From the IMG/VR virus record IMGVR_UViG_3300011116_000277, positions 1 to 40,654 of that record: a DNA stretch of 40,654 nt; one strand, 5' to 3'. Source of the DNA: a virus. Positions within the stretch are counted from its first letter, which is position 1. Each line of letters starts with the position of its first letter. Of the stretch, positions 23,983 to 24,957 are shown piece after piece. The notes beneath the pieces were generated by a model. The model had not been told where the DNA came from. It ran no database searches and saw only the letters and a list, made by a program, of their open reading frames with translations. The position numbers and the translations under genes are program-made.

Positions 23983-24053
23983 TTGACAACTGACAGCCAC
24001 AGGAGGAAAATCGGACACAGAAGCAAAAACAGAATTAGAAAAGTTCTAGTTCT
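23983..24053 (+). promoter_or_regulatory. Early promoter P2 and leader hairpin
   Basis: TTGACA (23983-23988) lies 11 nt after the CRP-type palindrome. At 17 nt spacing a weak -10, GAAAAT (24006-24011), follows. The leader folds at 24031-24053: AGAATTAGAA, loop AAG, TTCTAGTTCT (10-bp stem with one wobble). Three bases later TTAAGACAGGAG begins. P3 has the same arrangement. Confidence 0.6.
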
Positions 24054-24073
24054 GAATTAAGACAGGAGAAACA

Positions 24074-24388
24074 ATGGAAACAATTAACACCACAGCAGGA
24101 CAGCAATTTGTTAACGACTATTGCTTAGTAGTTGACAACGATTTTAACGCCTACACCGAAATCATGGAAAAGCAAAACACCAAGGCGCAAAACATGTCGG
24201 GATTATCTGACGAGTTAAAAGCCGAATTTGAAAACTACATCTCCCAAGTTGTAGAGCGCGAGAAAGAAAACGGGCACGAAATCGGGGCGCTTTTAATCTC
24301 CCAAATGCTTATCGGTTGGGGTTCTTCTACCTTTGACCAAATAGCCCGCCACTACATCGGACTTAAGACAGAAGCGGAGGCTAAATAA
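24074..24388 (+). CDS. Early protein, unknown (104 residues)
   Basis: An acidic helical protein: METINTTAGQQFVNDYCLVV..., with EFENYISQVVEREKENGHE and SQMLIGWGSSTFDQIARHY. The C-terminus LKTEAEAK is encoded by the TTAAGACA element that serves the next gene. TTAAGACAGGAG precedes its own ATG. It is first in a transcript driven by P2. No family is recognised. Confidence 0.7.
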   Translation: METINTTAGQQFVNDYCLVVDNDFNAYTEIMEKQNTKAQNMSGLSDELKAEFENYISQVVEREKENGHEIGALLISQMLIGWGSSTFDQIARHYIGLKTEAEAK

Positions 24389-24564
24389 TGCAGGAAGAAA
24401 TCACTATTGCAGGGGTAAAAGCCCTAACTATTGCCCGCTTATTGGAGGAGTATGCAAACTCTAAAGGTGAGGGCGCATTACCTACAAGCAAGCGCCAAGC
24501 GTGGAACATAGCCCAAAATTTAAAAGCAGATGTGAAAGATGCCGAAGAATTGGGGGTTAAATAA
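24388..24564 (+). CDS. Small early helical protein (58 residues)
   Basis: MQEEITIAGVKALTIARLLE..., then SKRQAWNIAQNLKADVKDAE. It is probably an all-helical mini-domain; TIARLLEEYANSKGEGALPTSKRQAW has a helix-turn-helix feel, but this is not firm. It starts in the TAATG overlap with the previous gene, preceded by GGAGG, and ends in TAATG with the next. No family is recognised. Confidence 0.7.
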   Translation: MQEEITIAGVKALTIARLLEEYANSKGEGALPTSKRQAWNIAQNLKADVKDAEELGVK

Positions 24565-24800
24565 TGTCACGACTTAAGACACAATTTGTTCACGAGATAG
24601 AGATTATCTACGAAACAACAGGCGACTACATGAATTTTAAATTTGTCGCTAATGAAAAAACCGACCCGCAAAAAATCTTTGATGAATTTGTGGCTAACTG
24701 TTCTATCATCGTGACAGATGTGGAAGAAGAAGAAATTGAGATTGATGACGAAGATGACAGCGATGTTTACACAATTAAAGTTGAGGAGGTTGTGTCTTAA
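24564..24800 (+). CDS. Very acidic small early protein
   Basis: 78 residues. An alpha-beta N-terminal part (SRLKTQFVHEIEIIYETTGD) is followed by the acidic stretch VEEEEIEIDDEDDSDVYTIK. The high negative charge suggests DNA mimicry or binding of a basic partner, which early phage proteins often do; this is inference. Its start codons contain a TTAAGACA copy (24574). It is the last gene before the hairpin and P3 region. Confidence 0.7.
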   Translation: MSRLKTQFVHEIEIIYETTGDYMNFKFVANEKTDPQKIFDEFVANCSIIVTDVEEEEIEIDDEDDSDVYTIKVEEVVS

Positions 24801-24810
24801 TACATAATAG

Positions 24811-24875
24811 CCCCGCCCAAGTGGTGGCAAGTTGGGAGCAATACCCAAGCGGGGCGCGGTGTGAAACTAGTCACA
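24811..24875 (+). promoter_or_regulatory. Second hairpin region with CRP-type palindrome
   Basis: GCCCCGC/GCGGGGC again forms an outer stem (24811-24857). Inside, CCCAA, TTGGG and CCCAA occur in that order, so the middle piece can pair with either flank, a switch-like layout. Then GTGTGA-AACTAG-TCACAC contains TGTGA-N6-TCACA (24860-24875). The sequence inside the stems differs from the copy near 23907, but the stems are kept. Confidence 0.6.
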
Positions 24876-24890
24876 CTTTTAAAAATATGC

Positions 24891-24957
24891 TTGACAACTG
24901 TCAGGCGTATCTTTAAAGTTATACTTAGCAGGACAGAATAGGAAAAGTTCCTAATCT
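24891..24957 (+). promoter_or_regulatory. Early promoter P3 and leader hairpin
   Basis: TTGACA (24891-24896), 17 nt, TAAAGT (24914-24919); TATACT follows at 24920. TGACA-AC-TGTCA (24892-24903) is palindromic, as at P1. The leader hairpin at 24935-24957 is AGAATAGGAA, loop AAG, TTCCTAATCT. Relative to P2, stem bases have changed on both sides (TAGAA/TTCTA to AGGAA/TTCCT), and the 3-nt gap to TTAAGACAGGAG is unchanged. Confidence 0.65.

Follow-up and report, generated by a model that had tools for sequence, protein, structure and literature searches.

Genome Context and Features of the Locus

The window, i.e., the whole stretch of DNA analysed, is a virus record of 40.65 kb. It encodes a terminase, a portal protein, a sigma factor, a DnaB-like helicase, a primase and a WhiB protein. 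The closest relatives of the terminase and of a 656-aa protein are found in Streptomyces phages, and the 656-aa protein also matches OX376640 and OX376641, the genomes of Planktophila phages LanE43-AprE7 and AprF5 (PMC10202952). Hence, judging from the relatives of these two proteins, the host is probably a low-GC freshwater actinobacterium of Nanopelagicales. A scan of 84,980 species genomes confirmed no relative of the SprT-like protein and thus indicated no bacterial host or prophage, and deposited phages showed no nucleotide similarity to the 22.6–29.8 kb region. The sigma factor gene (sigma-70 region 4, PHROG sigma-K) is located at 29796-30485 on the minus strand, and its product may recognise leaders without a good −35 or −10 box.

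A run of small plus-strand genes occupies 23.2–29.1 kb, with the repeat TTAAGACAGGAG or its variants directly before the start codons. Matches to the repeat with at most two mismatches number 24 in the window, against 3.7 expected. The sequence AGACAGGAG differs by one letter from AGAAAGGAG, which is complementary to the 3′ terminus of actinobacterial 16S rRNA; the repeat is therefore an extended Shine-Dalgarno sequence. CTTAAGACA/TTAAGACA also occur within coding sequence at 23600-29640, mostly on the plus strand, and the window contains 15 copies of the 9-mer. The coordinates of the leader features are collected in Table 1.

Table 1. Leader hairpins, predicted promoters, palindromes and start-associated repeats in the window.
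Feature	Position	Strand	Description
Leader hairpin copy 1	24030-24054	+	11 bp including one U-G (24035/24049), loop AAG
Leader hairpin copy 2	24934-24958	+	11 positions, one A·A mismatch (24938/24954), loop AAG
Leader hairpin of the SprT-like gene	23202-23220	+	perfect 8 bp, loop CAA
Leader hairpin of the last plus-strand gene	28915-28931	+	6 bp, loop AAATC
Promoter-like TTGACA-17-TATTCT	23166-23194	+	predicted +1 at the foot of the 23202 hairpin
Promoter-like TTGACA-17-GAAAAT	23983-24011	+	predicted +1 about 9–12 nt before the 24030 hairpin
Promoter-like TTGACA-17-TAAAGT	24891-24919	+	predicted +1 about 8–9 nt before the 24934 hairpin
Tandem −10-like TATACTTATACT	28900-28911	+	predicted +1 near the start of the 28915 hairpin
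Terminator-like GTGTGA/TCACAC hairpin, then TTTT	24859-24880	+	between palindrome and promoter, read by eye
Three-way-junction palindrome copy 1	23907-23951	+	7-bp GCCCCGC/GCGGGGC closing stem, two inner hairpins; 16 nt after the stop of the SprT-like gene
Three-way-junction palindrome copy 2	24810-24855	+	9 nt after the stop of ORF 24564-24800
Repeat TTAAGACAGGAG, extended Shine-Dalgarno	24057-24068	+	before ORF 24074
Repeat TTAAGACAGGAG	24961-24972	+	before ORF 24980
Variant repeat GAAAGACAGGAG	23231-23242	+	before ORF 23252
Variant repeat ATATGACAGGAG	28936-28947	+	before ORF 28955

Leader Hairpins in the Window

The initial annotation had placed hairpins at 24031-24053, 24935-24957, 23202-23220 and 28915-28931. 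All four are present and fold better than shuffled sequences. For copy 1 the minimum free energy (MFE) is −11.4 kcal/mol (z = −4.24) and for copy 2, whose stem has ten real pairs including the outer C-G, it is −9.9 (z = −3.30); in neither case was any of 200 shuffles as good. The hairpin of the SprT-like gene has z = −3.82 and that of the last plus-strand gene z = −2.38, with one and five of the 200 shuffles as good, respectively. The 10-position stems of copies 1 and 2 both end exactly 3 nt ahead of TTAAGACAGGAG, as had been described. Their pairing, said to be kept despite base changes, is so in two pairs changed on both sides (TAGAA/TTCTA versus AGGAA/TTCCT), but the A·A mismatch makes the stem of copy 2 imperfect. 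The 23202-23220 hairpin does not hold exactly the same place, contrary to the annotation: it ends 14 nt before GACAGGAG, compared with 7 nt for the 10-position stems of copies 1 and 2, and is set roughly 7 nt farther upstream than the other hairpins. Orthologues of this hairpin keep the stem and differ in the loop, and those of the 28915 hairpin have stems of the GCCAATC/GGTTGGC type.

Among the 15 GACAGG-type sites between 23.2 and 29 kb, four of the five that are preceded by a promoter-like sequence have a hairpin, whereas the remaining ten have none (hypergeometric probability about 0.004, calculated by hand). The only promoter-led repeat site without a hairpin is 26095, where the leader is unstructured. 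The surrounding segment, 26053-26113, holds the region's best promoter-like match, followed by the repeat with a CCAAC-rich leader; in three relatives (L006, L036 and L058), the orthologous leaders also lack a hairpin adjoining the repeat.

Promoter-like matches are not commoner in the region overall than in shuffled sequence (13 versus 15). The predicted +1 falls at −12 to +3 of the first base of the hairpin in 75% of the leaders with a promoter-like match, versus 31% in shuffles. The predicted promoters thus suggest a position of the hairpin at the 5′ end of the transcript, and a hairpin directly behind a promoterless palindrome may lie elsewhere in its message. In three leaders, the −35 box is overlapped by a palindrome resembling TTGACANCTGTCAA (23163-23178, 23980-23995 and 24888-24903); a single regulator might use these palindromes as its operators.

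The stems end 6–13 nt before GGAG and 15–25 nt before the start codon, so that the stem end falls just outside the expected cover of the 30S subunit. The loops are mostly A-rich (AAT, AAG, AGATA, AAAGC), and 75% of the bases in the 5′ arm are purines. This constant spacing bears on the idea of a transcription-level RNA signal, in which the nascent hairpin alters its own polymerase through nut- or put-like antitermination or promoter-proximal pausing. Hairpins in the first tens of nucleotides of the predicted transcripts would suit such a signal, since nut and put sites lie there as well, and the phage has its own sigma factor. However, there is no conserved boxA/boxB- or put-type sequence, and a position fixed to the ribosome site is needless for antitermination, which makes a signal of this kind improbable.

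Distribution of Hairpins among Relatives

Relatives of the locus were gathered from viral metagenomes via the SprT-like protein, the repeat, the leader sequence and the upstream palindrome. They are overlapping contigs, and all counts given here are of distinct sequences and not of independent events. More than 100 different hairpin sequences were found, nearly always just 5′ of nAGACAGGAG; the last count, with a permissive score, gave 136. The stems are mostly 7–12 bp long and share no consensus except the purine-rich 5′ arm. A strong hairpin ending within 5 nt of the repeat is present at 18% of 251 unique sites, compared with 0.26% of dinucleotide shuffles. Strong hairpins were found at 43 of 117 intergenic repeat sites, versus only 3 of the 134 where an upstream reading frame runs through the site; the other 74 intergenic sites have none. 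A covariance model built from copies 1 and 2 and their relatives gave 199 matches in 66 sources, and these counts were left out of the results because the weaker matches are driven by the repeat alone. The two Planktophila phages, E7 and F5 (L267 and L268), carry the junction element, the leader hairpin and GACAGGAG in the same layout.

Selection on RNA Pairing

Two gap-poor alignments of orthologous or same-geometry leaders were studied, A1 and A2, of which A2 is the family that includes the two copies of the window. In the two alignments, 97% and 93% of the cells are paired, and 15 and 12 cells are changed on both sides. The covariation score exceeds all 500 shuffles and all slid registers, and RNAalifold, unaided, recovered the full stem on A2 and most of the stem on A1. 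Covariation among the homologues was also significant against a tree-aware null, for which the inferred changes were placed anew along the tree by simulation, with P = 0.0005 for A2 and a moderately significant P = 0.025 for A1.

A further 54 intervals were chosen blind to pairing, with a palindrome upstream and the repeat downstream as the sole criteria. Their mean MFE is −11.6 kcal/mol, with z < −2 in 94% of them, and arm-swapped chimeras of the same intervals reach −5.8, half of the fold energy being lost. Among 85 hairpins, scored alike for all non-Watson-Crick pairs, G-U pairs outnumber A-C pairs 61 to 16 (P = 2e-7). Such a bias points to the RNA of the coding strand, since a DNA palindrome would give none. 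The proposal in the annotation that structure is kept over sequence and acts in RNA is therefore well supported by the tree-aware covariation, the fold excess of the pairing-blind intervals, the arm swap and the G-U bias. On this comparative evidence, the hairpins are real and under selection as RNA. No Rfam 15 family matched the window or five relatives at the gathering threshold, and hits at E up to 10 were at chance level.

The strand bias also speaks against a DNA-level element, such as has been suggested for the extended start-associated sequences (ESAS) of cluster K phages; the hairpin would then be either the operator of a protein that binds DNA or a junction for recombination. The inverted repeats are promoter-proximal, homology between genomes breaks at the adjoining repeat, and the TTGACANCTGTCAA-like palindromes overlap −35 boxes, all of which would fit such an element. 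It would not, however, account for the G-U excess; the stem sequence is unconserved, unlike an operator, and the breakpoints lie at the repeat and start codon, 3′ of the hairpin. We regard a DNA-level role of the hairpins as very improbable.

Three-Way-Junction Palindrome

Upstream of hairpin copies 1 and 2 lie two palindromes that fold as three-way junctions with a GCCC.../...GGGC closing stem. In 80 distinct relatives of this palindrome, chosen by halves, positions outside the selection are 96% Watson-Crick, versus 46% with the arms exchanged. The palindrome starts at a median of 11 nt past the upstream stop codon. About 80–100 distinct covarying copies were observed (in the window, L041, L043, L066, L267, L268 and others), mostly 5–20 nt after stops and often 4–6 nt before a leader hairpin. 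One class carries TTGACA in the first inner loop and a −10-like sequence 17–18 nt further on. The non-standard pairs of the palindrome show no G-U bias (6 versus 8), which differs from the leader hairpins (P = 0.008); any action of the palindrome in RNA is therefore putative. Our working guess is that it belongs to the 3′ end of the gene before it, and that it may or may not also contain a promoter for the gene that follows.

Two other identities of the palindrome were considered and rejected. Some of its traits recall the acceptor and T-arm of tRNA (a loop-to-end distance of 11–12 nt, and C56/R57 in a 7-nt loop). As a tRNA mimic it fails because C is frequent at position 58, neither ARAGORN nor the tRNA model of Rfam gives a hit and one class carries an inner promoter. 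As a recombination site it fails because homology breaks there are not enriched (5–13% versus 10%). Against Rfam at the gathering threshold, the palindromes of the window and five relatives gave no match.

The proximity of the two structures would allow an RNA-processing boundary, with an endonuclease of the RNase E, G or III type cutting at or beside the hairpin or the three-way junction and the hairpin forming the processed 5′ end. In relatives, the junction lies 4–6 nt before the hairpin and 5–20 nt after the previous stop, and a read-through message would carry both. Stems of 8–12 bp are, however, short for RNase III, the junction lacks the G-U bias and one class has its own promoter; processing as the role of the hairpin is thus unlikely.

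Gene Exchange at the Start Site

Between related genomes, the right ends of homology fall within 30 nt of the repeat or start codon in 56% of cases, versus 11% expected, and one leader was found before different, unrelated genes. Since homology breaks at the repeat and start codon, the hairpin belongs to a promoter-leader module and not to the gene. Such breaks, seen in SAS-rich relatives (e.g., L005, L058, L065 and L067), identify the repeat as a junction at which genes are exchanged.

A broader scheme would make the leader a natural insulator cassette, composed of a junction element that ends the previous message or is itself processed, a sequence-free hairpin and the extended Shine-Dalgarno sequence. 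With a start site that stays fixed, the phage could exchange the genes behind it and yet express them. The junction element may then be a new RNA class, i.e., a processing site, a terminator or a ribozyme. We offer this scheme as speculation, and as a whole it is rather unlikely.

Proposed Function of the Leader Hairpin

The initial annotation had suggested 5′-end protection or regulated translation. The former fits the position of the hairpin and the indifference to its sequence; the latter, taken as hiding of the Shine-Dalgarno sequence, is not supported by the folding predictions. The 3′ arms pair with the Shine-Dalgarno sequence no better than shuffled arms do. In the predictions the hairpin makes this sequence more accessible, the modelled probability of GGAG being unpaired amounting to 0.81 with the hairpin versus 0.62 with a scrambled sequence. 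A Shine-Dalgarno sequestration switch was rejected on these grounds.

In the reading that we favour with moderate confidence, the hairpin is a generic 5′-terminal mRNA stabiliser and ribosome-site insulator in an exchangeable promoter-leader module of Nanopelagicales phages. The structural part of this reading is shown by covariation, the G-U bias and folding, and from it we infer the effects on stability and translation: the stem is independent of gene and sequence, stands at the predicted transcript start and adjoins the ribosome site without touching it. Transcription would begin about 0–12 nt upstream of the hairpin, to judge from the promoter sequences. The nascent RNA folds into a short stem, typically of 8–12 bp, whose 5′ arm is rich in purines and whose loop is small and A-rich. 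Such a stem at the start of the message would leave 5′-end-dependent RNases no free 5′ end, and would prevent the extended Shine-Dalgarno sequence from base-pairing with sequence farther upstream. Any gene recombined in behind the start-associated repeat would thereby be well expressed, and the stem sequence would be free to drift because pairing alone matters. Simple end protection does not explain the purine/pyrimidine polarity of the arms.

That polarity, together with the A-rich loops, is a possible recognition feature for a phage or host protein, which might use the hairpin as a bound or switching translational operator and toggle the translation of early genes. The hairpins do stand directly before the ribosome sites of early-type genes. 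Nevertheless, even inside the window the stems vary in sequence and length and the loops vary as well (3 or 5 nt), pairing of the 3′ arm with the Shine-Dalgarno sequence is at chance level, and the same leader precedes unrelated genes. An operator therefore seems fairly unlikely.

Comparison with Known Systems

The T7 gene 10 leader has a stem-loop near the 5′ end of the transcript, before a strong ribosome site. Bacterial mRNA is stabilised by 5′ hairpins, and the 5′-terminal stabilisers of ompA and B. subtilis likewise have a stem-loop at the very beginning of the transcript or close to it, just ahead of a strong ribosome site (PMC3997798); for the leaders described here, the starts are predicted. 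The ompA, B. subtilis and T7 gene 10 cases are single leaders, whereas here dozens of unrelated stems occupy one slot across one phage group. The insulator RiboJ leaves a 23-nt hairpin before the ribosome-binding site and raises expression, and this hairpin is thought to expose the site and stabilise the transcript (PMC6206723). The phage hairpins are similar in size and stand 6–13 nt before GGAG with the Shine-Dalgarno sequence open in silico. RiboJ is synthetic and contains a self-cleaving ribozyme upstream of its hairpin; the structure upstream of the present hairpins is the three-way junction, which matches no Rfam family at the gathering threshold.

Start-associated sequences (SAS) and ESAS are known from cluster K mycobacteriophages (PMC3203893) and cluster EF Microbacterium phages (PMC7302621). 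The system described here resembles them in having a repeated, unusually conserved Shine-Dalgarno sequence a few nucleotides from start codons in a region of non-structural genes, and an upstream inverted repeat at a subset of sites, mostly in wide intergenic gaps. The cluster K SAS is the 13-bp GGGATAGGAGCCC, which shares position and Shine-Dalgarno core with TTAAGACAGGAG and differs in sequence. The cluster K ESAS comprises 17-bp inverted repeats with a common consensus, while here more than 100 distinct stems keep the pairing and not the sequence. The authors of the ESAS study state that RNA pairing is in general not supported by the departures in the two arms, and they favour DNA binding (PMC3203893); the present hairpins, with their compensatory changes, are the opposite. 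Adephagia ESAS contain putative SigA-like promoters (PMC11373665), i.e., within the element, and here the predicted promoters lie upstream of the hairpin. The hairpins are therefore not an ESAS, because the defining sequences differ and ESAS lack support for RNA pairing. In its passages on cluster EG Microbacterium phages, PMC7302621 describes 18-bp inverted repeats 14–22 bp before starts, similar in place to the hairpins here; unlike them, these have a conserved GATCAACCNNGGTTGATC and a 2-nt spacer, and covariation is not reported in those passages.

SAS/ESAS elements have been known in actinobacterial phages since 2011, and as late as 2025 their role is described in the literature as unclear. 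The present system, parallel to SAS/ESAS, shows clear RNA-level selection on the upstream repeat. Together with the fixed spacing from the ribosome site and the exchange of genes at the start codon, this selection turns the 'start-associated' motif into a testable hypothesis. The system also suggests how phages keep newly gained genes expressible. The occurrence of the same layout in two cultured phages of Planktophila, which are abundant freshwater bacteria, provides an experimental system. The aligned DNA of these two phages is 96.8% identical (PMC10202952). The leader of one orthologous gene has diverged between E7 and F5, with GCCCCCG/CGGGGGC in the palindrome of one phage and GCCACCG/CGGTGGC in that of the other, and the hairpin stems also differ.
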